Shown here piece after piece: positions 151 to 22,011 of a stretch of 35,136 nt of DNA. Under the pieces are notes generated by a model. That model was not told where the DNA came from. It worked only from the letters and a program-made list of their open reading frames with translations, and searched no databases. The position numbers and the translations under genes were made by a program. This DNA is from Clostridiales bacterium. Its GTDB lineage: Bacteria; Bacillota; Clostridia; Lachnospirales; Lachnospiraceae. Location of the stretch: NCBI GenBank assembly GCA_021203005.1, contig JAJQCB010000021.1:1-35136 (forward strand), written 5' to 3'. Position 1 is the first letter of the stretch; every line of letters starts with the position of its first letter.

Positions 151-1554
151 CTAATGTTGTTCCGCATTCTCCGCCCATATCTGCCGACCGATCGAGCCAT
201 TCGCAGCTTCCTCCGGTACGATTTTGATCACGATATTTTCGATATCGCCTGACAGTGTTACCCTCCGACCCTTGTATCTGCCTATATTACGGTCATATAC
301 GGTTGCCGCGGTAATTGCTTCCCTCACGGCATCCTTGACGCCTCTGGCACCATAATTGCTATGCTGTTCCTTAAACTGAACCATTAATTCTTCATCCATG
401 TGCTCCAGTTCCATCTCGTAGTTCTGAAGTTCCTCCACAACAAATTTGCTGACGATATCAGTAAGGGCATCTGCAGGTAGTTCACGAAACGCCAGACAAT
501 TCGTGATCTTGCCGGCAATTTCCGGATGGCCGCAGGCTCTGGCCAGTGTGTTCCTGCAGATTTCCTTCTTTCGAAAGGCAGAGGCTTCATCATAAGCTTT
601 CATATCTACCGCAATATTGCTTGTAATGATAAAGATCACATGACTCAGATCAATATCAGAAGAATTATCCGCCAGATGAACCACTCCACTGGAAAAGCAT
701 TCCATCAATCCGGTATAAATGCGGTCTGTTGCCTTCTCAATTTCATCCATGAGATATACCTGGTATGGATTGGAACGCACGGGTTCGAACACTGTAGGAT
801 CCTTATAGCCTACATATGAAGGCGGAGAACCAAAAAATCTGTTCACCGAATGTTCACCAATAAATTCGTTGAGCGCAATCTGGTGAAAGCCATAAGTCTG
901 CCCTGTCAGCTTTTCTAAAATTTTTGGCAGAGCCTTGCCAACCTCTGTTTTTCCTACTCCGGTCGGTCCAAAGAGAACGATAACCTCAACCTCTGGCTGT
1001 TTTCTGCGGAGATTTGCCGAAATCAGTTCACTGATCTTTTTGATAGCCTCATCCTGGCCGTAGATACCACGCATTAATTCCGCAGCAAGTTCATCCGGCC
1101 AGACAGTTTTTGTCCTTTTTTTCTGTTCAAGTTTCCGAACTTTGTCCTTCTCTACGATTCCCTTTTGCTCAATCATATATGACCTTGCAGGCACTTTATC
1201 TCTATGTGAAAAGTCTTTTTCATCAGGACTTTCACGAAGAAACTTCTCTTCTTCCTTCACATTGTAATTCCATACCTGCTCTGTGTTGCAAATAGTTACT
1301 GTTCCTCCATCCTCTTCCGGCTTGAATTCGATGATCATATCAACTTGAATATTCTGCGGCAATCTGACACATCCTGCGGCAACGCAAGTTTTGTCGGCAA
1401 AGTTAATATGATAAATCTCCATATCTTTTTTCCCATTGATACCCCCGAGCATTTTCTTCAGCCCGCTTTTTCCGTTCATCCGGATGACAGGAGTTATATG
1501 AACACGGTCACCATCAAAGCCAATTACAATATAGTCCTTGTCAGTATACCTCAT
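151..1554 (-). CDS. ClpB/ClpA-type AAA+ unfoldase, single ATPase domain
   Basis: 467 residues. This AAA+ ATPase of the Clp/Hsp100 C-terminal (AAA_2) type probably unfolds or remodels proteins. Visible motifs: Walker A GPTGVGKT at about 196-203, aromatic pore loop YVGY at 247-250, Walker B YLMDE at 267-271, sensor 1 TSN at 311-313 and sensor 2 GARG at 402-405. Residues 1-150 form a separate domain I do not recognise; there is no Clp N-domain and no D1 ring. Where ClpB has its arginine finger (PEFLNRID), this protein has PEIAGKIT, with lysine in place of arginine. I see no ClpP-binding loop. Start: GGAGG six bases before the ATG. It is the last gene of unit 4, 124 bases after the YARHG gene. 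The family call is firm; the role with the E1/E2/JAB enzymes is inferred. Confidence 0.85.
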   Translation of the reverse strand: MRYTDKDYIVIGFDGDRVHITPVIRMNGKSGLKKMLGGINGKKDMEIYHINFADKTCVAAGCVRLPQNIQVDMIIEFKPEEDGGTVTICNTEQVWNYNVKEEEKFLRESPDEKDFSHRDKVPARSYMIEQKGIVEKDKVRKLEQKKRTKTVWPDELAAELMRGIYGQDEAIKKISELISANLRRKQPEVEVIVLFGPTGVGKTEVGKALPKILEKLTGQTYGFHQIALNEFIGEHSVNRFFGSPPSYVGYKDPTVFEPVRSNPYQVYLMDEIEKATDRIYTGLMECFSSGVVHLADNSSDIDLSHVIFIITSNIAVDMKAYDEASAFRKKEICRNTLARACGHPEIAGKITNCLAFRELPADALTDIVSKFVVEELQNYEMELEHMDEELMVQFKEQHSNYGARGVKDAVREAITAATVYDRNIGRYKGRRVTLSGDIENIVIKIVPEEAANGSIGRQIWAENAEQH

Positions 1555-1678
1555 GCAATATCCTCCGTTCGTTTTGATAAGTCTACTCTATCAGGCAGCA
1601 GATATTTCATCATCTGCATACTTAAGCAACAGTTGAAACAGCCATCAAAATCCCGTTTCCTTGTCATACTGACTGCAT

Positions 1679-2320
1679 CTACAGATATTCACAGAGCAGT
1701 TTTACATTTGTCCTTTCGAACTCATTGAATTCTCTTACGATTTCCTCATCCGTCTTTCCGGATATGGGGTCATACCAGTCCTGCTCGCTGAAATAATTAA
1801 TATTCTCCTGTGTATGAAACTCACGTCCATGTCTGGCATAGATTCCATTGATGATCAGCTGTATTTCATCATGACTATAGTTTTCAATATCTGATGCCTC
1901 CAGACACCGTTCGGCACTTTCCTGCATCAGATATGCCACAGAAACTGAACGCTCTTTTAAAACGGCTGCTTCTGCCACAACGGTATCTGTCTCCCGATTT
2001 TCCACCATATCAGATACCTCCTGTGCCTGCTGCGCCTTCATATAATTCGTTATGGCCTGCTCTTCCAAAGAAACATGGGAACAATTATAGATAAATGCCC
2101 CGATAAACGACACAATCACAGCGCTGGCAATGACAGCCTTCCATGAAAATCCAGTGTGGACTGTAGCGCTTACTGTACTGGTTGTATTCATTGGATTTGC
2201 TATCGCCTGATCGATCTGGGCTCTTCGGTCTGCCTCTTCCTGTGAGACATTGTCCAGCATAGTCCTCCCTGTCCGGTCGTCTTTATAATATCGTTTTCCA
2301 TTGATCAAAACGTAACTCAT
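1679..2320 (-). CDS. Single-pass membrane protein with C-terminal YARHG domain
   Basis: 213 residues. The N-terminal about 58 residues are polar and cytosolic-looking (starting MSYVLINGKRYYKDD). A single transmembrane helix spans about 60-78, followed by a linker of about 70 residues and a C-terminal YARHG domain (about 150-213) with the defining IYARHG motif at 160-165, then FHTQENINYF and DWYDP. YARHG domains are usually extracellular and of unknown function, often on lipoproteins or membrane-anchored proteins of Firmicutes. The start codon overlaps the stop of the E1-like gene (ATGA), with GGAGG inside that gene, so the two are translationally coupled. I infer that it presents a sensor or wall-contacting domain outside while the conjugation enzymes act inside. 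The domain call is good; the function is unknown. Confidence 0.75.
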   Translation of the reverse strand: MSYVLINGKRYYKDDRTGRTMLDNVSQEEADRRAQIDQAIANPMNTTSTVSATVHTGFSWKAVIASAVIVSFIGAFIYNCSHVSLEEQAITNYMKAQQAQEVSDMVENRETDTVVAEAAVLKERSVSVAYLMQESAERCLEASDIENYSHDEIQLIINGIYARHGREFHTQENINYFSEQDWYDPISGKTDEEIVREFNEFERTNVKLLCEYL

Positions 2321-3651
2321 GTGTGATACCTCCCAGACTTTTTATGTTTTACTCCGCAGCAGGGACACGACTCATTTTTCTGCACCGGACCGGACCTCCA
2401 GGTCAGTGGCCTGCGCTCGCCCTCCTTACCAAACAGATGCATATAGGGATTGACTTCCTGAACCACCGGATAATTAAGCAGTACTGTACACTGGTTAATA
2501 TACGGAAGCAGCTTCGGCTCATAGTCTTTTTCATTCTCCATCAGAAGATCAATGGCCAGTTTTGCCTCAAAGATTGCCGTAAGCTGAATGTCCAGGTACA
2601 TCCCCGGCTGAGAATGAAGCTTCTCAAGTTCTCTCTCCGTTGCATAGAATCGTCTTCGCACTGCCTGGTTGCTGTAATCTACACCTTTATCCTCACCATA
2701 AGCGCAAGTGTAACATGCCATCCCGGAATCAGGTTTATAATAAAAAATCTCACCCGTACTCGCCTTCGGCCCACATCCGGCATCGACCATCGGGATATGA
2801 TATCTGTCCGCCAGCTCATTACAGACATATCCGCAATGACGATTATCTGCACAACTGAGGATAATGGAATCCTTCCCAATAAGCTTATCAAGTTCAGCAG
2901 GATCAACATGCTGAATCAGATCTCTGAAAGTATAGACTTTACAGTATGGATTGATGTCTGCAGCTCTTTCTGCAAAACAATCAACTTTATATCGCCCAAC
3001 ATCATGGATACCGCACTCATGACGACATACATTGTGATAGGCAAAAATGTCATCGTCTGCGACGATCAGCAAACCAATTCCCGCTCTTACCAGTTCCAGA
3101 CCGGCCTTAAATCCCCCAGATCCGATGCCCGAGATAATTGCCTGTTTTGCTGTCATCCTGTCCTTTTCTACAATCCCAGCGTTTCTGGAAAAAGCATCCT
3201 GCTGACAGGAGTAAAACTCGATATGGATTTCTGCCACCGCATTATCTCTCATGGAGATTTCCGCCTGATCATCGTTCCAGATAATAGAAATGTCAAACTT
3301 GTCAACGATTCCTCTTTCCATATGTTCTTTTCTGATCGCAGCGCCTAATGCTTTTACATCCGTTCTGACGCTATAAAGTTCCTCCGGGACGATATTATAG
3401 ATTTTGGTTTCCGGGTGATAGTACCCCTTCAGTTCTCCCTCGTAACGCTGTTTTCTGTAATCTTCTGGAATCATGACCGTGTATGGCCTGAGTATCTCCT
3501 GCATCTTTTCAAAGTCCGAGAAAGCCTCCTCAAACGCACTGTTTTCTTCCGTATTATCTACGAAATTGTCTCCACTTGACGTCCTGTTAACGGATTCTGC
3601 TTCTGCAGATACCATTGCTACCTGCATGATTTTTTCTGCTCTGTTGTCCAT
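2317..3651 (-). CDS. ThiF/E1-like adenylyltransferase of a ubiquitin-like pathway
   Basis: 444 residues. E1/ThiF enzymes adenylate the C-terminus of a small modifier and pass it to a cysteine. Residues 1-165 are a poorly recognisable N-terminal domain. The Rossmann core starts with SGIGSGG at 174-180 and continues with DDD (199-201), N207, R210-H211 and VGRYK (218-222), matching the D..N..R..G.K signature of ThiF. Four cysteines, C313-x2-C316 (CYTC) and C429-x2-C432 (CPCC), should make the usual zinc knuckle. The closest conserved cysteine for thioester transfer is not obvious to me. I chose the ATG at 3651 because GGAGG precedes it by about 11-12 bases. Its first 34 bases overlap the JAB gene, and its stop overlaps the next start. 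The neighbouring E2-like and JAB genes make a protein-modification role more likely than thiamin or cofactor sulfur transfer. Confidence 0.88.
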   Translation of the reverse strand: MDNRAEKIMQVAMVSAEAESVNRTSSGDNFVDNTEENSAFEEAFSDFEKMQEILRPYTVMIPEDYRKQRYEGELKGYYHPETKIYNIVPEELYSVRTDVKALGAAIRKEHMERGIVDKFDISIIWNDDQAEISMRDNAVAEIHIEFYSCQQDAFSRNAGIVEKDRMTAKQAIISGIGSGGFKAGLELVRAGIGLLIVADDDIFAYHNVCRHECGIHDVGRYKVDCFAERAADINPYCKVYTFRDLIQHVDPAELDKLIGKDSIILSCADNRHCGYVCNELADRYHIPMVDAGCGPKASTGEIFYYKPDSGMACYTCAYGEDKGVDYSNQAVRRRFYATERELEKLHSQPGMYLDIQLTAIFEAKLAIDLLMENEKDYEPKLLPYINQCTVLLNYPVVQEVNPYMHLFGKEGERRPLTWRSGPVQKNESCPCCGVKHKKSGRYHT

Positions 3652-4304
3652 AGTTTTTCTCTCCTCCCGATGCCCCTTAACAGTCCAACGAATTTTGAAC
3701 ATATCGATCCTTTTGCTTCGCTTTCTTCAGTCGGTCTGCACCAGGTTTTTCTGAATCCCTTAAGTGTGACCTCATTGCGCTCTACGGTTTCTTTGAGTTT
3801 ATGCAGGTCAATACGCGGCATAGCTGTCCTGACCGCTTTATCATTAATTTCATAACCGGCTTCCGTCTCACCTCCGTCCTCATCGATATACCAGAACCTG
3901 ATCCTGAACTCAGGATCAATAAAGAGGAGTCCGTTTACCACACCGCCATACTGTTGTGCCAGTTTGATATTTGCCGGACGATCGCCTGCGCTGAAGCGCA
4001 GGCAACCATCCGGATGTCTGTGAACCTGTGACACGGTCAGTTGGCCATTCGAGAAATCATAATATTCGGAAAGCCTGGTGGCCAGATGATCTGCATACGC
4101 ATGATCCTTCTCACACATGGTCGGCGTATAAGTAGCATTGATTCCGCTATCCGCCACCATGTCGAAGTAAAAGTCATTACCGATACGAATCCCTGGCATC
4201 TGGATAATACTCTCATTCCCGGGATGCCTGCCCGCTTCGAGCAGCATCCCCCTATATGTATTATGGGTAATATAAACATGATACTTTTCTTTACACCGAA
4301 ACAT
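3618..4304 (-). CDS. JAMM/JAB (Mov34-type) isopeptidase
   Basis: 228 residues. JAMM proteases are zinc enzymes that remove ubiquitin-like modifiers or trim their precursors. The signature H-x-H-P...S-x-x-D is present: HRHP at 95-98 and SAGD at 105-108, so the zinc ligands would be H95, H97 and D108. E23 could be the general-base glutamate near the N-terminus. After the core (to about 150) is a basic C-terminal extension of about 75 residues rich in K and R. Start: the ATG at 4304 has GGAGG six bases ahead; a longer open frame upstream lacks a good site. It sits between E2-like and E1-like genes, overlapping the latter by 34 bases, the order typical of prokaryotic ubiquitin-like operons. The catalytic assignment is firm; the substrate is unknown. 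Confidence 0.82.
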   Translation of the reverse strand: MFRCKEKYHVYITHNTYRGMLLEAGRHPGNESIIQMPGIRIGNDFYFDMVADSGINATYTPTMCEKDHAYADHLATRLSEYYDFSNGQLTVSQVHRHPDGCLRFSAGDRPANIKLAQQYGGVVNGLLFIDPEFRIRFWYIDEDGGETEAGYEINDKAVRTAMPRIDLHKLKETVERNEVTLKGFRKTWCRPTEESEAKGSICSKFVGLLRGIGRREKLWTTEQKKSCR

Positions 4305-4315
4305 AGGTACCTCCG

Positions 4316-4768
4316 TTATCTGTCTCGATCTACGCCGGTCTTCTCCCATACACAATATACGTCAATCCAGCGGAGCACTCTGGTCATAGCCGTATAGCCA
4401 TTAACCGAAGCCGGATCCGTGGATCTTACCTGACAGATATATGGCAGTCCCATCGCGGAATCAGAGATCAGATGATGGAACCCCGGCTTCAGCTTTGTCA
4501 TAGGATACACTTTGATTGACCCACCAAAGAGACCGTCAGCATCCCTTCCCGGATGGTCGTGCTCATATACAACATGGAATATAAACGTTCTCCAACGTTG
4601 ATCCGGTGCCGGCTTAACCGGCAGCGTCACATCCACGCAGAATCTATGTTTATTGTCATAAATAAACATCATCTTCATATTCGGATGGTTATATTCACGC
4701 ATAAATCTCAGGAAGGCATCCTTTTCAAATCTCAGCAGTGCGCCGTTCTCTTTTTCGTACCAGTACAT
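4316..4768 (-). CDS. E2-like conjugating protein (prokaryotic E2 family)
   Basis: 150 residues. The fold signs are a beta-rich middle (residues 33-90: MMFIYDN..FCVDVTLP..RTFIFHVVYEHDHP), a VYP segment at 87-89, then HHL and GLPYICQV around C112, and an aromatic C-terminal helix with W134 and W141. That order, beta-meander, YP, cysteine after a short loop, then helices, is what E2 folds and their prokaryotic relatives show; C112 is the candidate thioester cysteine. Sequence similarity to eukaryotic E2s is too weak to see by eye, so much of the confidence comes from its place directly before JAB and E1 genes. Start: GAGGAGG seven bases before the ATG, and a 12-base gap to the gene before. It might instead be a non-catalytic RWD/E2-like scaffold. 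Confidence 0.6.
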   Translation of the reverse strand: MYWYEKENGALLRFEKDAFLRFMREYNHPNMKMMFIYDNKHRFCVDVTLPVKPAPDQRWRTFIFHVVYEHDHPGRDADGLFGGSIKVYPMTKLKPGFHHLISDSAMGLPYICQVRSTDPASVNGYTAMTRVLRWIDVYCVWEKTGVDRDR

Positions 4769-4780
4769 TCCAGCCCCTCC

Positions 4781-5026
4781 TCAACAGGCGTAATTCTTCT
4801 CAGGTGCGGTATTGATCACCGGGGTGTTGGAATTCTCTGCCTGACTGGCCGGCACCACCTCACCATTGCGAAATACAAACGCCTCAACGTCCGCCATCCC
4901 GTTGGCCTGATCCTCCAGCTGGCCATAGTTTTTACTTTTACTGGTTCTGATCATATCCATATGCTTCTCCTCCTTGTCACAAACCATATGATCCTTAAAG
5001 TTGCGATTCACTACCATTTTATCCAT
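4781..5026 (-). CDS. Small soluble protein next to E2; possible modifier or substrate
   Basis: 81 residues, unrecognised. It has a basic, charged N-terminal third, a middle VEAFVFRNGEVV that could form a beta hairpin, and a flexible tail rich in N, T, S and P ending in EKNYAC. It lies between the membrane-protein genes and the E2-like gene, where prokaryotic ubiquitin-like operons often keep their modifier. There is no C-terminal di-glycine and no clear beta-grasp pattern, so calling it a modifier would be speculative. There are two in-frame starts with full Shine-Dalgarno sites: the ATG at 5026 (AAGGAGG, seven bases) and the ATG at 4960 (AAGGAGG, eight bases), the second giving 59 residues. 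Either or both could be used. It certainly looks translated; its function is open. Confidence 0.65.
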   Translation of the reverse strand: MDKMVVNRNFKDHMVCDKEEKHMDMIRTSKSKNYGQLEDQANGMADVEAFVFRNGEVVPASQAENSNTPVINTAPEKNYAC

Positions 5027-5040
5027 TTGTAATCCTCCTT

Positions 5041-5259
5041 CTATCTAAATAAAGACCTGGTTAAGTAACCTATGGTAAATACCATAATCACGATCGGTAT
5101 AATCGCGTTGATCCATGCCCAGGTGTTGTTGGCAAATGCCGTCACGATAAACTCTTTATACCTGACACAGCTGACAACTACCAGCAATGCACCTACTATA
5201 ATCCAACCGATGAGGAACCGTTTAATCACCGTCCACACGGTTACTGCCTGATCATCCAT
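5041..5259 (-). CDS. Small two-helix membrane protein
   Basis: 72 residues. It has two hydrophobic helices, about 15-32 (FLIGWIIVGALLVVVSCV) and about 47-66 (TWAWINAIIPIVIMVFTIGY), with a short charged loop (RYKE) between and a basic C-terminus (RSLFR). I chose the ATG at 5259 because GGAGG stands ten bases ahead, overlapping the end of the preceding membrane gene. The longer open frame to 5463 would run through that gene in another frame and is rejected. With its neighbour it forms a pair of tiny membrane proteins directly after the two VirD4-like genes, so it may anchor that ATPase pair, as small membrane partners do in secretion systems. No family recognised. Confidence 0.7.
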   Translation of the reverse strand: MDDQAVTVWTVIKRFLIGWIIVGALLVVVSCVRYKEFIVTAFANNTWAWINAIIPIVIMVFTIGYLTRSLFR

Positions 5260-5264
5260 ATCTG

Positions 5265-5543
5265 TCACCACCTCCAAAAGCTTCTGTGCAGTTTCCACCT
5301 TATCCGCACAACAAAACAAACAACCGCCAGTATTGCAACCAGGATCAGGAAACCAGACGATAACAGATTTGCCATAAAAATGGCGATTCGCGCTGTCACT
5401 GCCCCAAAATTGGCAATGATACCGATTGCTGCCAGCACAGATATCGTGGAGCAGATGATCCATGTGAGCGTCACGCCCGACATAGTCCTGACTCCTGTCC
5501 CACGGTAGCTTTCCTGTTCAAAGATGTTTTCTGTACGTCTCAT
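5265..5543 (-). CDS. Small two-helix membrane protein
   Basis: 92 residues. Polar N-terminus of about 22 residues, two hydrophobic helices (about 25-46, LTWIICSTISVLAAIGIIAN, and about 52-80, ARIAIFMANLL..GFLILVAILAVVCFVV), then a basic aromatic tail (RIRWKLHRSFWRW). The start overlaps the stop of the gene before (ATGA) and is preceded by AAGGAGG ten bases upstream, so translation is coupled to the VirD4-like pseudo-ATPase. The next membrane gene begins six bases after its stop. No family recognised; a structural membrane partner of the ATPases is the simplest reading. Confidence 0.72.
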   Translation of the reverse strand: MRRTENIFEQESYRGTGVRTMSGVTLTWIICSTISVLAAIGIIANFGAVTARIAIFMANLLSSGFLILVAILAVVCFVVRIRWKLHRSFWRW

Positions 5544-6814
5544 ATGCGTTCCACCTCCTTCGGTCCTGTATCCGTATATGGTGTCATTACCGGACTTCCT
5601 GCCACTGCCGGCAGGAAATCCGATGTGTGAATTAGAAAGACATTGGTATTCGCCGTAGTCTTAACAGCAAGGTAATTAGATGTTCTGCCGAAGATACCCG
5701 CTTTCGCATACATGTCCTGACTCCGAACGCGCAGACATTCTTCTGTCTGGCTCTGCCAATGAACAGCATGCTTAAATGATACGAAGATATGCGGGGTATT
5801 TCCTGCAACCGGTACCGGATAATGGTACTGATAAGTCCCAAACAGAGCCCGGGAAAGATCATCGGTCACAGCAGGTGTCCCATGATGGAAAAGAACCACA
5901 TTCGGAAAATCCAGTTCTGCATTTCCATGCATCATCGCTTTTATATTCTGTGATACCATCATCAATTCGATCCTGCTCTGGCGCCGGACTTGCATGAGAT
6001 ATTGCATCAGTTCATCGTTTTCATCCGTAAACTCCATCTCATCAAGGATAATCCGGACTCGCGGCACACGCCTAAGGGTATGGAAGATTTCTTCTTTCAG
6101 ATAGGAGTTAAAAATACGCTGATTGCCGGAACACACATACATAACCATTCCTGCCACATTTCCTTTTGCTCCCGTCTGAAAATTATACTTTGTGTCGCTT
6201 CCTGACGTATATATGTCTTCAAATATCTCCTCAAGGCGTTCGAACACTCTTCGAAGCACGATACCCGACTCATGATTTGCCCGAATATTATCGGCAATCA
6301 CATTGGAAAGGCCTGACTGCAGGGCAAATTCAGAGATAAAATCATCGTCCTCATTCAAAAGCTTTACAATGGCCGGTAAAGATACCGGATATTTTGCTGC
6401 CACCACGTTCAACACTGCCGCAGCATAAATCATGACCGAGTCTGTCAGAATGCCATATCCCATCTCTTCTGCTGTCATACAGACAAAGCGAAGCATCTGC
6501 TGTGCGGACATCCCGTAAAAAGGATGATAGTTCCTGTCCGCAGGGTATGATATCATGACGCAATTGATCTCTTGCGAATCTCTTTTCTGCCGGATGGCCG
6601 ACATCAGATCCAGATGACTGGTCAGGAGAATTGTCGGCATATCACTTCTTTCCAGGCCGCTGCGAAACAGGTCGAGCACCATCTCCCTGTTCCTCGCCTC
6701 ACCTCCGGTAATTAAAAGGTCTCCCTGAATCTTTCTGAAAAAGGAGGCGCTGTCTACACGTCCTTCCAGCACATGTCTTGCTGCATTCAATCGTGTACAC
6801 TCGTTCATGATCAT
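5540..6814 (-). CDS. VirD4/TraG-like protein lacking a Walker A motif
   Basis: 424 residues. The general plan follows VirD4/TraG or HerA ATPases: a first strand and loop GDLLITGGEARNRE at about 31-44 where a P-loop should be, an all-helical insertion in the middle, and a Walker-B-like RVRIILDEME at 252-261 followed by RRQSRIELMMVSQNIKAM, the helix-strand-Q pattern of sensor 1 in TraG proteins. The P-loop position has GGEARNRE instead of GxxGxGK[ST], so ATP hydrolysis is unlikely. It directly follows a complete VirD4-like ATPase, after 108 bases in which I see no convincing gene, and may be its regulatory partner in a mixed ring. Start uncertain: ATG at 6814 or 6808, neither with a clear Shine-Dalgarno, so it may be made in smaller amounts. 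Its stop overlaps the next gene. Confidence 0.68.
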   Translation of the reverse strand: MIMNECTRLNAARHVLEGRVDSASFFRKIQGDLLITGGEARNREMVLDLFRSGLERSDMPTILLTSHLDLMSAIRQKRDSQEINCVMISYPADRNYHPFYGMSAQQMLRFVCMTAEEMGYGILTDSVMIYAAAVLNVVAAKYPVSLPAIVKLLNEDDDFISEFALQSGLSNVIADNIRANHESGIVLRRVFERLEEIFEDIYTSGSDTKYNFQTGAKGNVAGMVMYVCSGNQRIFNSYLKEEIFHTLRRVPRVRIILDEMEFTDENDELMQYLMQVRRQSRIELMMVSQNIKAMMHGNAELDFPNVVLFHHGTPAVTDDLSRALFGTYQYHYPVPVAGNTPHIFVSFKHAVHWQSQTEECLRVRSQDMYAKAGIFGRTSNYLAVKTTANTNVFLIHTSDFLPAVAGSPVMTPYTDTGPKEVERI

Positions 6815-6922
6815 TCTTTTATTACTTATAAAATCACCTGTCCCTTTCCGCCTGGATCTTCCGCAATTCTGATTTCCTGGCGCCCAGCAGTATCAATACC
6901 TCGAAGGGTTCTTCTTATTCCA

Positions 6923-8329
6923 TCACCGATATAAAGGCAAAGTAAACAGAAATGGATTTTCTCCCGCCAGTGATACTACCGCCTTACCATTCTTCAGTTT
7001 CAGGATATTCCAGTCTTCTACCGTATGGCCTGCCCTCTGAATGTTAATATTTTGCTGCTGTGCGGAAAAGCTGAAATTTTGGTAGTTCTCTCCGAGCCGG
7101 TTAATCACAAACTGTCTTGTATCGTAATCATTTGTTTTAAACACTACCATATTCTGAAATGAAGACAAGATATTCTTTGCGCCGGATTCTCCGTACTGCT
7201 CTTCAAGACCACAAGTATTCTGAAGACCACACATCACCCGGACTCCCTGTGAACGTCCAAAGTTAAGGCTGTCTGAAAGATGCTCGAGTCTCGGAAGAAG
7301 AAGCATCTCATCCAACAGAAAATATTTATTGGTCTTTATCTGCTGTCTTCCCCCTAATGCGTTCGCAAAGGCACGATCAATGAGAATCGCATACATAGGT
7401 GCAAGAAGCTGGCCTTTACGGAGATCATATTCGATAAAAACCACTTTCTTTTTTCCACTGCACATAATATCTCTCATGGAAAACTCTCTTGCGGGATCAG
7501 CTTGGGCAAATGGCCCCACAAACATCCTCTTTAGCATTGATCCAACGTAACTGTTGACGCCCTGAGTCTGATTCCCCTTTCCTGAAATATAATCATTACA
7601 GCTACGCTGATCTGACATATAATCCAGGTTTAAAATCTTCTTCAGTTCCTCATTGGTACTATGGCGAAAGAAATTCATCAGCTCCTTGTTATTCAGTTTC
7701 GACTGGGCAGAGCGCCAGTAGGTTCTCATGAAATAAATCATAACTGCGGCAATCACCTGTTCCGCCATCGCAGGGAAAACAGGCTGCGTCTCGCTGTTCA
7801 TAGACTGAAACAGCTGCTCGCAAAGCTCCAGCGCATCCTCGTCACACTCTGGTGTGTAAACCAGTTTACCGTCAATTCCCCGCGGCATTACTTCAGCAAA
7901 AATGTTATGAAAAGAAGTAATCTTGCGGTATGTCTCTCCGTTGCCAATCACAACCTTCTCGTTATCCGGGATCCTGCCACCAAAGGTTTCCAGGTAATCT
8001 CCCTTGGTATCAAAGATAACGATCACATCCGTCGGCTGCATTGTGGCAAGCAGACGATCCAGTGTCATGTTGAAGAAATTGGTCTTACCAGTGCCCGGTG
8101 CGCCGATAGCAAGGAGGCCATATGCCAGCGTATCTTTGTCTATTCCAAAAATCTTCCGACTCTCCGGATCCTGAAATGCCACAAACGGGCTTCTGGAGCT
8201 ATCTGCTGTCCATGTGGGAACTATAGCGGCTCCAAGGCTCTGCCCTAAAATCGTCTTCGTGTATATGCCGTCATTTTTCTCGTTGTTACCGTCTGCCCGG
8301 ATCCTCTTCTGTCCGAAATCATACGCCAT
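6923..8329 (-). CDS. VirD4/TraG-like (TrwB-type) P-loop ATPase
   Basis: 468 residues. Walker A GAPGTGKT at 76-83, then IFDTKGDY at 106-112 as in coupling proteins, Walker B KYFLLDEM at 335-342, LNFGRSQGVRV (355-365) and the CGLQN sensor at about 367-371. These are the hallmarks of type IV coupling ATPases, which form hexamers and drive DNA or protein through membrane channels. Unlike conjugative VirD4 it has no N-terminal transmembrane helices, so it resembles soluble forms and the HerA/TraG-like motors found in defence operons. Start: the ATG at 8329 has AGGAG seven bases ahead; an upstream extension overlaps the preceding gene and is not needed. It lies downstream of the HExxH gene and upstream of its P-loop-lacking relative. 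The ATPase call is firm; what it moves is unknown. Confidence 0.85.
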   Translation of the reverse strand: MAYDFGQKRIRADGNNEKNDGIYTKTILGQSLGAAIVPTWTADSSRSPFVAFQDPESRKIFGIDKDTLAYGLLAIGAPGTGKTNFFNMTLDRLLATMQPTDVIVIFDTKGDYLETFGGRIPDNEKVVIGNGETYRKITSFHNIFAEVMPRGIDGKLVYTPECDEDALELCEQLFQSMNSETQPVFPAMAEQVIAAVMIYFMRTYWRSAQSKLNNKELMNFFRHSTNEELKKILNLDYMSDQRSCNDYISGKGNQTQGVNSYVGSMLKRMFVGPFAQADPAREFSMRDIMCSGKKKVVFIEYDLRKGQLLAPMYAILIDRAFANALGGRQQIKTNKYFLLDEMLLLPRLEHLSDSLNFGRSQGVRVMCGLQNTCGLEEQYGESGAKNILSSFQNMVVFKTNDYDTRQFVINRLGENYQNFSFSAQQQNINIQRAGHTVEDWNILKLKNGKAVVSLAGENPFLFTLPLYR

Positions 8330-8345
8330 ACACCTTCTCCTCTCC

Positions 8346-9302
8346 CTAAATATCCATGCCGCCATCGACGCCATCATCAACACTTTCTCCTTCATTCGTG
8401 CTCATATTTGCGCCATTCTGCATATCCTTTATTTCTTCCTTTGCCGAACAATTATTTGCCTGTGTGATCTGCTGCTGAAGGCTGTTGTATGTTGCAATCA
8501 TCTCAGCTTTCACTGCTGTTTCTGTGTTTTTATCCACCGGAACATTGGTGCCAAAATACTGGTTCTGAAGGACTTGATTAAGATCCCGTTCAAAATCCGG
8601 ATTTTGAAACCGTTCGATTGCTTCTCGTTCCATCATCTCATAACCGGTTGCTGCCACTGATTTGCCATAAGCTTCAAACGACGGCTCAGTACCGTACCTT
8701 TCCGCAAGGTCGCTCAGAATTGCTGCTGTCTTCTCCTCCGAAAAGAGGAAAGCGTCCCGCTCTGTCGACTGGAAGTAATAACAATAATACCCATTAGCCG
8801 TCTCGTCAGTCAGATACTGGCTGCCAAGCTGATATCTTCCATCCTGCAGCACCACACTGGCAGTAAAACCATTTGCCTGATATTCTGCTGTTTTCTGCGC
8901 ATCGTCAATGATTATCGTCCCATCGATGACCTGATCCTGAAAACAATGTGTATTTTCATGCAAAACCGTATTTAAAGACTGAATATTATAATCCCCGATG
9001 GCATGGTGAACAGTCTGTCCGTTATATACGAAGGTCTGTACTCCACTGACAGCCATATCCCGGTTCACATGGATCACTCCATTCACTGCATTCCCGCTCT
9101 CATTTGCCGCCAGATTCGCGAAGCGCACTTCCGGCGCGCCAATCTCGCCTTTTTCAAGAGCATCGCGGTTCACGCTCTCCTGCAGCAGTTCCAGTTTCTC
9201 GTTCTCCTCAAGCCTGCTGTAAATGGATTCGCGGAACATCGAATAGAGATGATCATTGCTTAGATTCCCATACCGGGTGGGATGTACTCCATATGCTCCC
9301 AT
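8346..9302 (-). CDS. Putative zinc metallopeptidase-like protein with HExxH motif
   Basis: 318 residues. The segment NTVLHENTHCFQDQ (about 111-124) contains an HExxH motif, H115-E116-x-x-H119, in a predicted helix. About 60 residues later FQSTERDAF (about 177-185) gives E181 as a possible third zinc ligand, an arrangement seen in gluzincin-like peptidases. The N-terminal 60 residues are helical and charged, while 70-110 looks beta-rich. The C-terminal 40 residues are acidic and low-complexity (GESVDDGVDGGMDI). No signal peptide, so it should act in the cytoplasm. The start has GGAGG nine bases ahead, inside the end of the preceding gene; the stop is 16 bases before the ATPase gene. The motif is plainly visible; catalytic activity is an inference and the family was not recognised. 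Confidence 0.65.
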   Translation of the reverse strand: MGAYGVHPTRYGNLSNDHLYSMFRESIYSRLEENEKLELLQESVNRDALEKGEIGAPEVRFANLAANESGNAVNGVIHVNRDMAVSGVQTFVYNGQTVHHAIGDYNIQSLNTVLHENTHCFQDQVIDGTIIIDDAQKTAEYQANGFTASVVLQDGRYQLGSQYLTDETANGYYCYYFQSTERDAFLFSEEKTAAILSDLAERYGTEPSFEAYGKSVAATGYEMMEREAIERFQNPDFERDLNQVLQNQYFGTNVPVDKNTETAVKAEMIATYNSLQQQITQANNCSAKEEIKDMQNGANMSTNEGESVDDGVDGGMDI

Positions 9303-9308
9303 CCCGGA

Positions 9309-9614
9309 CTACCTCCGCATATTCCATATTTTCCGTTCAGCAATTTCAATATTGCCTTTTTCCAGTTCAATCATAATCTCCAGAGCTCTCAGGAAATCCC
9401 TGCTGTTCCAGATAGCCAAAATCATCGGCAGTGAATAATTGCCAATGTAAATGTCTGTCAGTTTCTGCCTTTTTGACCATTCCTCCACATTCTGAGTCAA
9501 TTTCACAGGACACATTTCCATCACCTGCATCGCCTTATCCTGTGCAGACTCCTGTGTCAATCCATATTCCTGGCGGATTCTCTCCGACAGCCCTGTCACA
9601 TCATATATTTTCAT
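9309..9614 (-). CDS. Small helical protein of unknown function
   Basis: 101 residues, no family recognised. It is mostly helical and charged, with a basic C-terminus (IAERKIWNMRR) and no signal peptide or membrane segment. Segment DKAMQVMEMCPVKLTQNVEEW is followed by LPMILAIWNSRDFLRALEIMIELEKGN in separate helices. Start: ATG with GGGAG about nine bases ahead. Its stop is followed after six bases by the HExxH gene, whose ribosome-binding site overlaps this gene's end, so they are co-translated. It may be an adaptor for the metallopeptidase-like protein or the first real gene of unit 4. Confidence 0.65.
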   Translation of the reverse strand: MKIYDVTGLSERIRQEYGLTQESAQDKAMQVMEMCPVKLTQNVEEWSKRQKLTDIYIGNYSLPMILAIWNSRDFLRALEIMIELEKGNIEIAERKIWNMRR

Positions 9615-9713
9615 ATCATCTTGCTCCCTTCTGTCCGACTATTTGTCGAACGTTTACTTTCGTACAGATATGGACGGCGGCAATGCGACAATCACCTCCT
9701 TATGCTACCATTT

Positions 9714-9896: not shown

Positions 9897-9931
9897 AACG
9901 GAATCCTCCTTTAAAAGAGGGAACTTAAGAA

Positions 9932-9966
9932 AGACCCGGAAGAGCAATTGTCACTCCTCCGGGTCT
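9932..9966 (-). terminator. Terminator after the Lon-like gene
   Basis: Inverted repeat AGACCCGGA (9932-9940) and TCCGGGTCT (9958-9966), nine perfect pairs, starting nine bases after the stop at 9975. On the minus strand it is followed by the T-rich TTCTTAAG. It separates unit 3 from unit 4. Confidence 0.7.
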
Positions 9967-9974
9967 CCCGGCGA

Positions 9975-12900: not shown

Positions 12901-13124
12901 CCATCCTGAGTTCTGAGGGCAATTGTGCCCTCAGTCTCATTATAATCCTCGTAGATACCATCAATTTCTACGATGTTGTCCCGGATTTCCTTAGGTGCAG
13001 GGATCTCATAACTGTTACCTGTACCTCTGATGTGAAAATGTTCTAAAGGTCCACTCGCAGTCCCGATATTAAACCTGCTTCCCACCATCTCTCTTGCTAC
13101 ATCAATCGATATATTCTTACTCAT
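9975..13124 (-). CDS. Lon-family protease with two AAA+ domains
   Basis: 1049 residues. The order is an N-terminal region (1-270) without a clear LON substrate domain, AAA+ module 1 (Walker A GGPGVGKT 287-294, Walker B IGFDEAD 351-357, sensor IATAN), a helical linker, AAA+ module 2 (Walker A GGFGIGKST 622-630, Lon-like pore segment ELKGFSSTYVGSEPGRI about 656-672, Walker B QLDEID 687-692), and a C-terminal Lon protease domain. The catalytic serine is S934 in DGPSAG and the lysine is K981 in GGVYEKLQAA, so the Ser-Lys dyad is intact. Ordinary LonA (about 780 residues) has one AAA+ module; two is unusual. Start: the ATG at 13124 has GGAGG eight bases ahead and overlaps the end of the YbjN-like gene by eight bases. 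It probably unfolds and degrades specific, perhaps tagged, proteins. Confidence 0.88.
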   Translation of the reverse strand: MSKNISIDVAREMVGSRFNIGTASGPLEHFHIRGTGNSYEIPAPKEIRDNIVEIDGIYEDYNETEGTIALRTQDGIESIMPVQNTMYSASITEEAGKENIIQIGDQLSIIGIKAEDRPVNIAVTIIRLEEKWIFEQVKSVYGRANAIKNFFRLFKDTPGKREYILNQLRGRKYSRYDASDDILFDSKQEQLLKYALSKETYPLETQRAYEAMFRDSNSSKHKTDQKLSYLSRIAPTYKGRRSVSKKELQKFLDSRFYKMNLPKQQLIDVLVSNERAGRRGFNILLVGGPGVGKTSIMKAIADVCNIPSEIIPLNGMSCPLELEGLDSGYDNADAGRLIKVFASHGTSEMVIGFDEADKMNGQSKEGDPMNVLYRILLGEHEDKFLGCGISTENTIFIATANSVRNIPEPIKNRFNAIIMLEDYSVEDKMVIARKFIIPQLLKNFGLKDKDLCFSDEVLQHIITDYCEDGGARDLQHNIDKIIRRTISSENQKAYKNLTIKIVNEILSPLVRETQAIFFNRHRNEYSDAVANEIKRCLSEMKENVRSNEGSFGEDKKRQCLEYLLSCRNEEGVFKDGFDPVLFSDKLHENLYGMDKVIKEATLFYHTAFLQGTILNSNLALCGGFGIGKSTIARNIAEAIGYHFVKIPLNGIDDARELKGFSSTYVGSEPGRIMKGLRKAGSLKTVFQLDEIDKIKPEIATVLLDLLDREFTDNFLSVPVDFRTSIFIATANEWGNVPAVIRDRFIVVNVDGYSRKEKAEIVSDYIIPKIEKSYVASSVSVSIEDSACTYLLEAYCTSFGVRDAEKAMQRIVSSKLLEQAGEENSTTVNISKDDVRRCLGEEPIPRGNFPEDGNQPGISRALGVINGNMGSTFAIETVLVDGDETLEMTGLPRESATDSVKIAVTCIKKMFPKLLKGKHIHVHFGEGSVPKDGPSAGVALFMSIFSAAIEKPLKIKDNYDVAYTGEISLTGGVFAVGGVYEKLQAASDSGCRIVFVPAQNYEYLDKDKLRQYSCEVAPVNHITQVIEKIFPEYTARCCRKTERNSADNRT

Positions 13125-14070
13125 CTTCGTTTCCTCCAACCACTTTCGGATCTTTGTTTTCATCTCTTCTGGCAAACATAGAAAGCATGCTGGCAGGCTT
13201 TTCAGACATATCATTTGAATCCTCTTCATCATTCTCTTCAGCCTGTGCCTTCATACGCATAAATCCCTCGAAACCCGGAATTGTCGTTCTTCCCCTCAAA
13301 CTACGCATGATGTTGGATCTTATATCCTCGTCATCAGAAGCGCAATCATCCTCTTTACTTTCGTCCCTGTCTTCCTTTCCGAACAAATCTGTAATATCCG
13401 AAATGTTGCCTAACTTTAATGATTTTGTTCCATAGCTTACGTTGTCATCATCAAAATCTCCGTTAACAGTTTCGAGGGCCATCTCCAGGAGTTTTTTGTA
13501 AAGCTTCCTGTCTTCGCCTGACACCATTCCTACCGCCAAATGTGATACCTTCGTATAGATTTCCAGTGCTGGACGAATAAGTGATGCCAGGTTCACCCAA
13601 AAGTACTTGTCGTTAAAGTATGCAGGATCCTCCAACATGTATGAATACCTCATCGTCAGTTCACCATTATCAATGTCAAGATTCAGGAGAGCAAATGCCT
13701 TGATTTCATTAAATCCCGCCATGAACATGCACATGAGAGGGAATGCATTGGACTGCACTCGGAACGGAAAGCTCAGTTTGAAAATTACCTTTCCATTCTG
13801 GAGAATAATATGAATCTCGAAAGGCTTATTATCTATGCCAAAGCCAAGTCTGACATGCTTAGGCTCATCTTCTTCATACGAATACTTAAGCTCATGCTCA
13901 TCAAGAACATGTCGAATCTTGTCCATGATCACCTTTTCCTTCGGGGACACCTCATTAAGATGTTTGATCATCCTGTCAATTTCGACCTTAAGCTCTTCGA
14001 TTTCCATTTCCACACCATCATGATCTGTCTCCTCAGATACCTTCATTCCCTTTAATTCTTTTTCATTCAT
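13117..14070 (-). CDS. YbjN-like domain protein with acidic tail
   Basis: 317 residues. Residues about 48-190 look like a YbjN/type III secretion chaperone-like fold: HELKYSYEEDE, then strands VRLGFGID, FEIHIILQNGKVIFKLSFPF, a helix FPLMCMFMAGFNEIKA and FALLNLDIDNGELTMRYSYML. YbjN domains are generally non-catalytic and bind proteins. The remaining 125 residues are polar and acidic with several DE-rich runs and probably disordered. Start: ATG at 14070 with AAGGAG nine bases ahead. It is co-transcribed with, and overlaps, the Lon-like protease, so an adaptor or substrate-delivery role is a reasonable guess. Alternative: a chaperone for another cassette protein. Confidence 0.6.
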   Translation of the reverse strand: MNEKELKGMKVSEETDHDGVEMEIEELKVEIDRMIKHLNEVSPKEKVIMDKIRHVLDEHELKYSYEEDEPKHVRLGFGIDNKPFEIHIILQNGKVIFKLSFPFRVQSNAFPLMCMFMAGFNEIKAFALLNLDIDNGELTMRYSYMLEDPAYFNDKYFWVNLASLIRPALEIYTKVSHLAVGMVSGEDRKLYKKLLEMALETVNGDFDDDNVSYGTKSLKLGNISDITDLFGKEDRDESKEDDCASDDEDIRSNIMRSLRGRTTIPGFEGFMRMKAQAEENDEEDSNDMSEKPASMLSMFARRDENKDPKVVGGNEDE

Positions 14071-14151
14071 CGTCGTATTCTCCTTTTGCTTTTGATAAGT
14101 GGTGGCGGTGTCTTGCAAGGCTGCTTAATACCGTTTCCCTTTGACACTTTC

Positions 14152-14188
14152 AGCATACCATACTCTTTTCTCTCAACATTAAGGAGGG
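14152..14188 (-). promoter_or_regulatory. Candidate promoter of unit 3
   Basis: On the minus strand CCCTCC (14183-14188) is followed 25 bases on by an extended -10, TGG then TATGCT (14152-14157). Bases around the -10 (ATGGTAT..T, then GAAA.TGT) match those of the 17429 promoter. No good -35. The leader to the ATG at 14070 would be about 75 bases. Confidence 0.4.
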
Positions 14189-14195
14189 AAAAAGG

Positions 14196-14234
14196 GAAAT
14201 CCCAGAAAAATCAATAGCCTTCTTCTGGGATTTC
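14196..14234 (-). terminator. Terminator after the OmpA-like lipoprotein gene
   Basis: GAAATCCCAGAA (14196-14207) pairs with TTCTGGGATTTC (14223-14234), twelve perfect pairs with a 15-base loop, then CCCTTTTTCCC on the minus strand. It lies about 50 bases after the stop at 14287 and closes unit 2. Confidence 0.7.
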
Positions 14235-14286
14235 TAAAATAATGACACTTGGCTCTTAAATTTTGAGCCGCGTTAATTACAACTTA

Positions 14287-15567
14287 CTAAACCTCAAGAC
14301 TCTGAATGATCTCCATCGCGGCATCGCTGTTATAATCCAGCAGTTTCACTGACCGATTTAATACCGCATGTTCATCTAGATTGCCCTCAGGATCTCGATC
14401 TTCGACATATAGACAGGAACTCCAACCACAGCCGATTATCATAATACGTGACTCATCAATTCCCGCCTTTTCCACCAGAAGAGAGCGAATTGCCTGCGAT
14501 CTCTTCTCTGAGAAAGCAATGCACGACGTTTGCTCTCCCGCCGAGGTGGTTGTTCCGCAGACTAGTAACAAGAACTCCGGATGTGTCTTCATATAGGATA
14601 CTACATAGGAAAGGGATTCCATTGCAGCCTCCGGATTTGCAATTTCGGTTGAATCTGGCAGAAATGAAACACTCTGCTCATCAAAGGTCAGGATCCCTCC
14701 ATCAGCAAATGTTTCTATAAGTATCTTTTCTTTTTCCGTTTCTTCTACCTCCTCAAAGTCGACAACCTTAGCTGACAGACCCGATTGCGTTCCTTCTGTT
14801 TTCACCGCTGAGACATGACAATTAAAAGCATACGTGCCGTTCAATGGAGTATTTTCCATAAAAGTTACATCATCTGCTCCCATATTTGTAAACCATGTCT
14901 TATAAAACTCCTTTAAGACTTTTCTTTCCTTCTCGTTCAACGGATCCTGTTCTGAACCAGCAACGTCACCACAGCAATACCAGATAACACTGATCCCTGA
15001 CAGGTCAAGGTCCATGTTTTCAGCAAGATATGCAGTCGAGGCGTCCACATCCAATACAGACACGGGTACTTTTACCATGTTTATCAGGCCTGTCGTTGAT
15101 AAGCCGGATCCATAATACACCAGCAGGTTCTTCCTTCCATCCACCTCGTTTGTACGGATTTTTCTGACCGCAAGCGACGTTGCCGCTGCTATATCCACCT
15201 CATCCGAATCTGGACATGCGGCATTCAACTGCCCGATAATGTCAGCAGCCACAGAGCTTTTCGCTCTCTCAATCATATCTTCGCTGTATCCTCTGTCACT
15301 AAAATCGGGTATCATGCCCTCACAGATAATACTAGGCGTCGCATCAGCAATAATACCGCTATACGTGCTTCCAGCTGCTTGTGGCAACATTGTAAGTTCT
15401 TTTATTCCTGCTGTATCCAGAACCGGGTTGTTGTTCGCTATGGCAGCGACAAAAGATACATTATAGGCTTCTTCCACCGGATCCTCAGACGGCTTACATC
15501 CACCACAAATAAGAATAATCGTAATAATTACCAACACCAACCAAATCTTCTTCGTTGTTTTCTTCAT
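14287..15567 (-). CDS. OmpA-like lipoprotein
   Basis: 426 residues. A short basic start and hydrophobic stretch (8-20) end in ICGGC, so C24 is the likely lipidated cysteine, although a cysteine at the -3 position is unusual. Residues 35-240 show alternating strands and helices (VSFVAAIANNNPVLD, LLVYYGSGLS, VSVLDVDAS, GISVIWYCCGD), resembling a von Willebrand A-like fold. Residues about 295-410 match the OmpA/MotB peptidoglycan-binding domain: SFLPDSTEI, the SEKRSQAIRSLLVEKAGID helix and NRSVKLL near the end. It should sit on the outer face of the membrane and bind cell wall, an uncommon combination in a Firmicute. The start shares one base with the stop of the membrane-protein gene, with AAGGAGG ahead. 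It may anchor the cassette's complex to the wall, as MotB does for motors. Confidence 0.75.
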   Translation of the reverse strand: MKKTTKKIWLVLVIITIILICGGCKPSEDPVEEAYNVSFVAAIANNNPVLDTAGIKELTMLPQAAGSTYSGIIADATPSIICEGMIPDFSDRGYSEDMIERAKSSVAADIIGQLNAACPDSDEVDIAAATSLAVRKIRTNEVDGRKNLLVYYGSGLSTTGLINMVKVPVSVLDVDASTAYLAENMDLDLSGISVIWYCCGDVAGSEQDPLNEKERKVLKEFYKTWFTNMGADDVTFMENTPLNGTYAFNCHVSAVKTEGTQSGLSAKVVDFEEVEETEKEKILIETFADGGILTFDEQSVSFLPDSTEIANPEAAMESLSYVVSYMKTHPEFLLLVCGTTTSAGEQTSCIAFSEKRSQAIRSLLVEKAGIDESRIMIIGCGWSSCLYVEDRDPEGNLDEHAVLNRSVKLLDYNSDAAMEIIQSLEV

Positions 15568-16817
15568 TATACTGCCTCCTTCAGTTCTCTTCCTTCACAG
15601 GAAATCATGGTCTTCATCATTTTCTCCACTTTATCTTCACTAGCTGCTTTCGCCTCCTCACCAAAGTTCGTCTTAAGAAGGCTCTTCGCTGACTCTGACA
15701 TCGAGTTTAAATATGAGGCATCCTGCTGATGTAACGCTAGAAGATGCCGGACATACAGTTTCAACCCCTTTTTCAGTGCCTCGATGTTCTTCTCAGCAAC
15801 GATTTGCAACTTTCCATCACAGATCAGCGGATCAACAGCATTCTCGAGAGAGGTAAGTTCTGCTTCCAGCTGGGTGTATACCTTCTCATCTCGTTTCTGT
15901 TCTGTTTTTAACATTCTGCATTCTTTTTCTATACGATAACCTTCATCATAAGAGAAGAAAAAAGACATCGTGCCTGTTACAGCTGTCGCCAGACCGCTGA
16001 TAATAGCCAGAGAATACTCAGCTACTGTGTACGTATCTTTGCCGATAAAATCACCAGCCGCGTTGAAGTTACCGTAAGTAAGACCCATGGATCCCAGACG
16101 GATTGCAAGGCTACCTACCACACTGATAGAAAACAAGAACGCAAAGACAAATACAAATGTGCGAAACATAAGTGTACGCTTTGAATTTGTCGATAACAAA
16201 CTACCCAGCGCGTACATCGTTCCATCAGACATCAGACAGAGACATATTACAAGAATCCTTAACATATTCATGTTTCCGTAAAGAATATTTTGGATGAACT
16301 GTGTGTTCACATAGTAGTCAGCCACAAGCGCGAGTACGGTAATCGGAAGCCCCAGTTGGATCATCCATCTGCCAATTCGTATCGCATACTTGGCATGATG
16401 GTCCGCCAGCTCGTCAATTCTCTTCTGGCGCTTCACGCATTCTTCGTCAATCGTCTCCATCCTTTTTTTCAACTCCTGCATTCGAATGATCCTTGCCTTC
16501 ATGATGTTGTTACCTGACAGTTCATGGAAAGCAACTTCTTCATGATACTTGTTTTTCACAAACTCCATTTCAGCATCCACGTAGGTATCCATGATGTCTC
16601 CTACCGTGTACTGATCACTGATCTGAATGAGTGGCGTGAGCTTATTCTCACACTCCGTGTATCTTTCTCTTAAAAAATCTTCTTTCAATACACAATAATC
16701 TTCGACAATAAAAGTTGTCAGATCTGCATGCCCATCCTCAGCATTTCTGGGAAGGTAGGCCGGCACATAATCTTCGATGTTTTTTGACCCCAGATTTCCC
16801 TTCTTTTTATTAAACAT
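15567..16817 (-). CDS. Four-helix integral membrane protein with coiled-coil flanks
   Basis: 416 residues, family not recognised. Predicted membrane helices lie at about 151-170, 185-207, 218-241 and 268-290. The 150 residues before them and 125 after are charged and helical, likely coiled coils (ELKKRMETIDEECVKRQKRI; KRDEKVYTQLEAELTSLE), so both ends should face the cytoplasm with an even number of crossings. The start has AAGGAGG six bases ahead and overlaps the stop of the preceding gene by eight bases; its stop shares one base with the lipoprotein start. With the OmpA-like lipoprotein it recalls the MotA/MotB or ExbB pattern of a membrane channel plus wall-anchored partner, though the sequence itself does not show that homology to me. 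Confidence 0.65.
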   Translation of the reverse strand: MFNKKKGNLGSKNIEDYVPAYLPRNAEDGHADLTTFIVEDYCVLKEDFLRERYTECENKLTPLIQISDQYTVGDIMDTYVDAEMEFVKNKYHEEVAFHELSGNNIMKARIIRMQELKKRMETIDEECVKRQKRIDELADHHAKYAIRIGRWMIQLGLPITVLALVADYYVNTQFIQNILYGNMNMLRILVICLCLMSDGTMYALGSLLSTNSKRTLMFRTFVFVFAFLFSISVVGSLAIRLGSMGLTYGNFNAAGDFIGKDTYTVAEYSLAIISGLATAVTGTMSFFFSYDEGYRIEKECRMLKTEQKRDEKVYTQLEAELTSLENAVDPLICDGKLQIVAEKNIEALKKGLKLYVRHLLALHQQDASYLNSMSESAKSLLKTNFGEEAKAASEDKVEKMMKTMISCEGRELKEAV

Positions 16818-17373
16818 GATTATCCTCCTTCAGAATTTTAGAAACTCTTACCTTCATCTCGTCATGATTTGCATGGTACGAGTTAAACGCCCAATCATAT
16901 TCAATCTGCGGGATATACCGGTTGAAAACCGGTTTTAAAAGAGCCCCATGTGCGTAAACACACAGGCGTTCTCTGAGAGAAAATCCCGTGGCGGCCAATT
17001 CATTCCGGCAGTTCGTTTCCATATTTCCAGTCTCCTCACTGATCTGGACAAGCCGCAGAAGGATTGCTGATCTTCTTGCCTCGTCCCGAACAGCCTGAGA
17101 CTCTTTTGTGGAGGCAGGAAACGAAACGAGTTCCATAAGGAGAGTTTCTGCTTCAACGCACATGCCGGCAATGTCTTCTTCTAAACCCTCAACCATATCA
17201 ATACAATATTTGTGGTATAAGTTTAATTTTCCGTTCACATACGCAGAGTTCAGGACACCGGTTTCCGGATCAACTCCGGCAGCCTTCAATCTTCCGTCAA
17301 ACAACCCATGAATGAAGACAATACATGTCGGGACGTTAAGCCCTCTCATCATCCGTACTTTTTTACTTCTCAT
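16810..17373 (-). CDS. Helical protein of unknown function, first gene of unit 2
   Basis: 187 residues, family not recognised. It starts with a basic segment (MRSKKVRMMRG), then VPTCIVFIHGLFDGRLK and long amphipathic helices without membrane segments or a signal peptide. I chose the ATG at 17373 because AAGGAGG stands nine bases ahead; an ATG directly against that site (17379) is too close, and the longer open frame runs through the promoter. Its stop lies inside the start of the membrane-protein gene, so the three genes of unit 2 are tightly coupled. It may be a cytoplasmic partner of that membrane protein. Confidence 0.6.
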   Translation of the reverse strand: MRSKKVRMMRGLNVPTCIVFIHGLFDGRLKAAGVDPETGVLNSAYVNGKLNLYHKYCIDMVEGLEEDIAGMCVEAETLLMELVSFPASTKESQAVRDEARRSAILLRLVQISEETGNMETNCRNELAATGFSLRERLCVYAHGALLKPVFNRYIPQIEYDWAFNSYHANHDEMKVRVSKILKEDNHV

Positions 17374-17428
17374 ACGTATCATCCTCCTTAAGCGTCTGCA
17401 GCAAAACCTGTTGCTTTCTACAGTTTCA

Positions 17429-17466
17429 ATAATACCATGCAAATCAGGCCCTAAAGGAGGGGGGGG
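17429..17466 (-). promoter_or_regulatory. Candidate promoter of unit 2
   Basis: On the minus strand a CCCCCCCCTCC tract (17456-17466) is followed 21 bases on by an extended -10, TGG then TATTAT (17429-17434). It sits between the terminator at 17484-17525 and the start at 17373, giving a leader of about 50 bases. No clear -35. Confidence 0.45.
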
Positions 17467-17483
17467 AACCGCAGACACGCAAA

Positions 17484-22008: not shown

Positions 22009-22011
22009 AGA

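Follow-up and report, generated by a model that had tools for sequence, protein, structure and literature searches.

The window, the whole stretch of 35,136 nucleotides analysed here (contig JAJQCB010000021.1), comes from a gut bacterium of the family Lachnospiraceae and contains a single minus-strand gene run at positions 151 to 9614. Genes for an E1-like adenylating enzyme, an E2-like protein and a JAMM isopeptidase within this run were confirmed as real and, as an earlier note on this DNA had read it, a VirD4-like ATPase and small membrane proteins are encoded alongside them, in an order that recurs in Lachnospiraceae. We consider it evenly balanced whether the run (9614 to 151) forms the Lachnospiraceae branch of a prokaryotic pathway in which E1, E2 and JAMM serve to conjugate a short peptide, largely without structure, as the modifier. 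Sequence and models support this reading through the E1, the E2 fold and the JAMM protein, with their conserved catalytic residues, and through a short peptide gene that in most relatives directly precedes or is fused to the E2 gene and has an invariant end with variable extensions. From its first gene onwards, the run comprised:

9309 to 9614, minus strand: u101, a 101-aa protein with no family assigned, which opens the run; orthologues 66-75% identical occur in loci L009 (identical to L026), L023 and L024.
8346 to 9302, minus strand: putative metallopeptidase with an HExxH motif (HENTH), read from the sequence.
6923 to 8395, minus strand: VirD4a, a VirD4/TrwB-like ATPase with P-loop GAPGTGKT (TrwB_AAD_bind, 2.7e-32).
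5540 to 6814, minus strand: VirD4b, a partner protein of unassigned family; the name is a working label and implies no kinship with VirD4.
5265 to 5543, minus strand: 92-aa protein with two hydrophobic segments (open reading frame [ORF] call and hydropathy; orthologues in L022 and L024).
5041 to 5463, minus strand: small membrane protein with two hydrophobic segments (hydropathy, orthologues).
4781 to 5026, minus strand: u81, candidate modifier (tag), with C-terminal end ..TPVINTAPEKNYAC (position, repeats, tag alignment).
4316 to 4768, minus strand: E2-like protein with a ubiquitin-conjugating (UBC) fold, Cys112 and His99 conserved.
3618 to 4355, minus strand: predicted JAMM/JAB isopeptidase, overlapping E1.
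2317 to 3702, minus strand: predicted E1-like ThiF-fold adenylating enzyme (ThiF, 6.7e-22).
1679 to 2320, minus strand: YARHG protein with one N-terminal hydrophobic segment (PF13308, 7.4e-17; hydropathy).
151 to 1554, minus strand: ClpB-like ATPase with a single AAA_2 domain (PF07724, 3.4e-23).

The E1 possessed a ThiF fold with the nucleotide-binding motif, the Arg/Asn/Asp/Lys motifs and paired CxxC of E1-like proteins, its invariant residues were kept in all seven rows of the E1 alignment (A1), and its best match in the PDB was UBA5 (1.9e-17). An AlphaFold2 (AF2) model together with VIA-align placed the E2 in the UBC fold with its catalytic Cys, which was kept in 73 of 82 sequences; Foldseek gave no E value below 0.001 for the model. 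The JAMM motif E..HxHx7SxxD was present in 74/74 sequences, assigning them to the JAMM/JAB family, and the JAB of a relative matched Prok-JAB. Elsewhere in the run, u101 had no Pfam match over the cut-off and hydropathy revealed no hydrophobic segment in VirD4a itself. Orthologues of the small membrane protein at 5041 to 5463 are 72-85 aa long, suggesting that only the C-terminal ~72 aa of that ORF are real.

Scanning contigs of related genomes gave five close loci (L022 to L026; L026 is genome G289), all in Lachnospiraceae and with E1s 73-76% identical to that of the window. Their hosts were two Candidatus Blautia metagenome-assembled genomes (MAGs), Lachnoclostridium sp. An118, one Lachnospiraceae MAG and Frisingicoccus caecimuris. 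All five kept u81, E2, JAB, E1 and YARHG in the order u81-E2-JAB/E1-YARHG (YARHG being partial in L025, a locus cut by the end of its contig), and four had the ClpB-like gene. The block u101-HExxH-VirD4a-VirD4b was found in the same order in three, with orthologues of the HExxH protein 74-82% and of VirD4b 77-82% identical. JAB and E1 formed a single ORF in four of the five and lay in different frames in the window and L024. The cassette is sparse, E1 being present in four of 299 family genomes, the window's own genome counted.

The candidate tag u81 ends 12 bases before E2. Its orthologues comprise one unit (L026), two (L022, L024, L025) or three (L023), those of L025 and L026 beginning at the internal Met of (M)MIRT. 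For the last unit, nine of ten pairs gave a ratio of nonsynonymous to synonymous substitution rates (dN/dS) of 0.03-0.28; the remaining pair was saturated. Aligned by HH-align, residues 16-45 of u81 fell on residues 27-56 of the tag found in distant relatives (described below), in register and stopping just before the C-terminal residues, and the first residues of the window E2, MYWYE, coincided with the start of fused E2s after GKLA. By its place, repeats and sequence pattern more than by score, u81 is probably the tag of this branch.

Beyond these relatives we found 81 further E1 loci, with ~29-43% identity to the window E1, in Bacillota, Bacteroidota, Planctomycetota, Spirochaetota, Actinomycetota, Chloroflexota, Pseudomonadota, Lentisphaerota, others and one archaeon, Methanosarcina. 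The 86 loci surveyed were 80 of 103 relatives plus L102, L012, L014, L019, L020 and L021; L012 and L072 share one contig, as do L019 and L098, and L021 and L076 are nearly identical. Hidden Markov models (HMMs) detected E1 in 81, JAB in 80 and E2 in 73 of the 86. Clustering of neighbour genes brought out a tiny protein before E2, ending in P-x-G-K-L-A and without a Pfam match. The tag HMM, from which one of 64 motif units (L038) was dropped because it failed the model, matched 68 of the 81 distant loci (66/78 without L012, L019 and L021): as a separate ORF in 40, in one ORF with E2 in 26, where it sits at the E2 N-terminus, and in other ORFs in two. Separate tags were mostly 47-83 aa as called (longer in L073, 177; L095, 137; L101, 121); 24 of the 40 ended exactly at GKLA and 14 carried one to four extra residues, the exceptions being L095, with a long zinc-finger-like extension, and L101, with a variant end. 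At least two tag domains per ORF occurred in fourteen loci, like polyubiquitin tandems, and in L060 and L100 the motif stood three times ahead of E2. In many tags the N-terminus carries a leader copy of this motif, suggesting that both ends are cut. The motif was present in 48/101 E2/tag ORFs versus 5/1544 other ORFs, with 3.8 expected by shuffling. Among EssC-type genomes (those with an EssC-like ATPase) the tag profile gave one match in each of nine, and it matched only one of 344 genomes of the order, G355, which carries an EssC-type E1; three more genomes in this set have an E1 (G000, G289, G460) and were not matched. In the AF2 model of one natural tag-E2 fusion, the E2 was folded and the tag had predicted local distance difference test (pLDDT) scores mostly <50 except for one helix, so that in this fusion the tag did not appear as a beta-grasp modifier. 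In two Muribaculaceae E2 ORFs (L063, 8434-9219; L075, 8067-8849) all that is left is a degenerate form of the leader motif (TPKGRLA, VPSGRLA), which may mark a tag that is decaying or of another kind.

An EssC-like ATPase was encoded at 48 of the 86 loci, 41 of which also had WXG-like ORFs; the EssC, WXG and tag HMMs were all built from members of these same loci. One EssC matched the NCBIfam EssC model at 8.5e-34, below the equivalog cut-off, and a WXG100 Pfam match reached 1.9e-5, under cut-off. The pairing of an EssC/EccC ATPase with WXG100 proteins that marks type VII secretion was seen in distant relatives only. The earlier note's alternative that tagged proteins might be exported fits these loci. 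Neither L022 to L026 nor those genes of the window that were compared with Pfam or NCBIfam gave an EssC match. Mapped onto the E1 tree, the presence of EssC requires eight changes, of which at least five are forced; EssC has thus been gained or lost on several occasions. Two of ten EssC-type genomes had a YukD match, in neither case on the contig that carries the tag. Beside EssC in L012, L014, L019, L021, L031, L033 and others, WXG-like N-termini were joined to a variety of C-terminal domains, an arrangement also found in polymorphic toxins of type VII systems.

The conjugation pathway is predicted here from sequence and models. In it, JAMM would cleave precursors directly after their conserved end (..P-x-G-K-L-A across the wide family, ..NY-A or ..NY-G in u81), exposing the C-terminal residue; E1 would adenylate this Ala or Gly, E2 would transfer the tag to a protein, and JAMM could remove it again. 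Most speculatively, the floppy tag might be a threading handle for a co-encoded motor (in the window VirD4a, together with the small membrane proteins, and the ClpB-like protein; in relatives EssC), by which tagged proteins might be exported or pulled apart at the membrane. In the Pup-Mpa system a disordered tag is engaged by a hexameric motor, and by analogy we speculate that the disordered tag could be such a starting point. The broader proposal, of a widespread pathway in which E1, E2 and JAMM attach a ~45-50 aa disordered, Ala-ending peptide from tandem or E2-fused precursors as a handle for FtsK/HerA-type motors (EssC in an unnamed type VII variant, VirD4a in the window branch), is plausible and somewhat doubtful.

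Several observations weigh against these readings. L022 had no u101, HExxH, VirD4a or VirD4b gene, upstream sequence being present; these four are therefore not required everywhere, and conjugation genes without VirD4a argue against its being indispensable. The last (second) u81 unit of L022 had no conserved end. The HH-align link between u81 and the tag reached only P=0.013, with three of 200 column shuffles scoring as high, and the tag HMM did not find u81 (E values of 0.69, the best, and 5.3 for two orthologues). A 26-row tag profile likewise missed the window's own genome and all four VirD4-type genomes, and VirD4-type E1s grouped as a single clade (100/100) whose branch is very long (3.18). 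The 68/81 count is no independent test, because the HMM was built from tags of these loci and three locus pairs are duplicates; 13 of the 81, some on short contigs, had no tag by HMM. The low pLDDT of the tag may partly come from a shallow alignment (19 rows).

Several genes around the run were noted as well. A 1489-aa protein at 17559-22028 of the window combines a Pkinase domain (2.5e-16) with a Card1-like nuclease region at its C-terminus, which scored just under cut-off (1.1e-5). In L023, L024 and L026 a Card1-like protein of 956-1051 aa (74-90% mutual identity) lies downstream of the ClpB-like gene; its window counterpart lies upstream instead and is 20-23% identical. The protein at 24166-27411 combines a TIR domain, a hydrophobic segment and beta-propeller-like repeats, and that at 27522-28454 is presumably a second TIR-like protein. 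Upstream of the cassette in L023, positions 2006-2893 encode a homologue of a DarT1-type NADAR antitoxin (2.3e-55), with similar ORFs in L022 and L024.

The same peptides could instead be docking or autoinhibitory segments joining E2, E1 and JAMM, another protein being conjugated. In the CBASS (cyclic oligonucleotide-based antiphage signalling system) enzyme Cap2, according to passages of a 2025 review (PMC12355090), an E1-E2 activates the CD-NTase C-terminus, so that E1s can act on other proteins. Peptides fused to E2 in 26 loci and the weak resemblance of u81 to the tag would suit such segments. Segments of this kind sit poorly with the 38 of 40 separate tag ORFs that stop at GKLA or at most four residues past it, the tandem units with an identical junction and the separate tags that coexist with their own E2 gene, and we think the explanation unlikely. 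Anti-phage immunity resembling Bil or CBASS type II, in which phage proteins would be modified or a partner activated and VirD4a and the ClpB-like protein would be accessory, strikes us as rather improbable. The TIR and Card1-like genes that lie nearby, both in the window and in relatives, the NADAR antitoxin homologue in L023 and the sparse distribution (4/299 family genomes) speak for it; the wide relatives, however, often adjoin EssC (48 loci) and WXG100-like genes (41 of the 48) instead, and no CD-NTase or BilA-like gene was recognised, not every window gene having been given to each library.

Two further explanations reach beyond the run. VirD4a might be a leftover or alternative coupling protein for conjugative genes at 29004-34509 (judged by sequence, 29717-31189 is presumably a relaxase and 29004-29705 a zinc-finger primase), the conjugation genes being passengers of a mobile element. 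Its match to the conjugal VirD4 family, far under that family's cut-off, is consistent with this; its retention beside E2/E1 in three of five relatives speaks against it, and we hold the explanation to be very improbable. The earlier note had also proposed a single 17-kb membrane system including the double-AAA Lon, YbjN, four-transmembrane (4-TM) and OmpA genes, which adjacency and a common strand favour. These genes were not found travelling with the E1 cassette elsewhere, so the single-system idea fails in this sample: the co-occurrence check proposed for it was run, and the units largely occurred independently. Eight genomes, five of them close and three distant, yielded no match that covered both AAA halves and the protease of Lon in one piece; each genome had at least one match to the Lon-like C-terminal half (29-35% identity), and three had separate AAA pieces. 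The 4-TM protein was absent from the same eight and present in three of 299 family genomes, its own included. The u222/4-TM/OmpA trio (window 14287-17478; L119/L120, L121) recurred, with 4-TM between u222 and OmpA, in G194 and G296, neither of which had an E1 match, so it occurs without the cassette. The YbjN gene was found in its own genome only, which in this sample of 299 says only that it is rare. We regard the single system as extremely improbable. Whether the trio includes a pair that is stator-like or Zorya-like is conjecture.

The short peptide modifier can be set against those of known systems. Pup and UBact are short, mostly disordered modifiers with a helix, as is the tag, but the enzyme that ligates Pup resembles glutamine synthetase and not E1/E2. 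The tag ends in P-x-G-K-L-A and not in the C-terminal Gly-Gly-Gln/Glu that, with the PafA ligase (for which no search was made), defines Pup. Bil (BilABCD), in the part of a review devoted to it (PMC11354881), likewise has E1, E2 and JAMM, together with a precursor that undergoes C-terminal processing. Unlike the candidate modifier here, a short peptide mostly disordered in AF2, BilA consists of two beta-grasp domains, and no BilA-like double beta-grasp gene was recognised in the window genes searched, no dedicated BilA profile being run. Family E1 and JAB proteins matched Cap2 and the 6A-MBL cap2_3 and Cap3 models, the E2 model aligned to a CBASS E2, and CBASS type II likewise has a non-beta-grasp substrate; E2, JAB and E1 are here mostly separate genes, in contrast, with a dedicated and often tandem peptide gene, and library searches, to which not every window gene was given, recognised no CD-NTase. 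Bub operons, covered in part of PMC13373217, include the E1-containing BubCD, a weak E1 match (4.5e-7) in a comparison that is incomplete. In sections of Iyer et al. 2006 (PMC1779556), E1/E2/JAB operons are divided into types 6a-6e, and YukD with ESAT-6 export is treated separately; in type 6e (polymeric ubiquitin-like modifier with JAB-E1), JAB is fused before E1 and modifier units are repeated, as here, whereas those repeats are ~70-75 aa, predicted beta-grasp, with an E2-like domain lacking the Cys, against units of ~45-50 aa and a kept E2 Cys. Type VII subtypes T7SSa-j share the EssC-like ATPase and WXG100-like proteins found beside the pathway in distant relatives; the portion of a 2024 survey covering subtypes c-j (PMC11217815) names no JAB or ThiF and has a YukD-like protein in nearly all. 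Our EssC-type loci may be the mobile variants of type VII that part of Zhang et al. 2012 (PMC3482391) outlines for Bacteroidetes and Planctomycetes and that have three FtsK/HerA domains.

The novelty lies in the modifier, of which no description was found in the literature searched, the main Bub reports aside. Bil and Cap2 are treated in two reviews (PMC11354881, PMC12355090), and passages of the second, from 2025, hold Cap2 to be the only E1 system known to activate a protein without a beta-grasp fold and others to be perhaps hidden by unusual substrates. If the reading is true, an E1 system with such an unusual substrate would exist in many phyla, ubiquitin enzymes would be shown not to need a ubiquitin fold, and protein export would gain a covalent signal.
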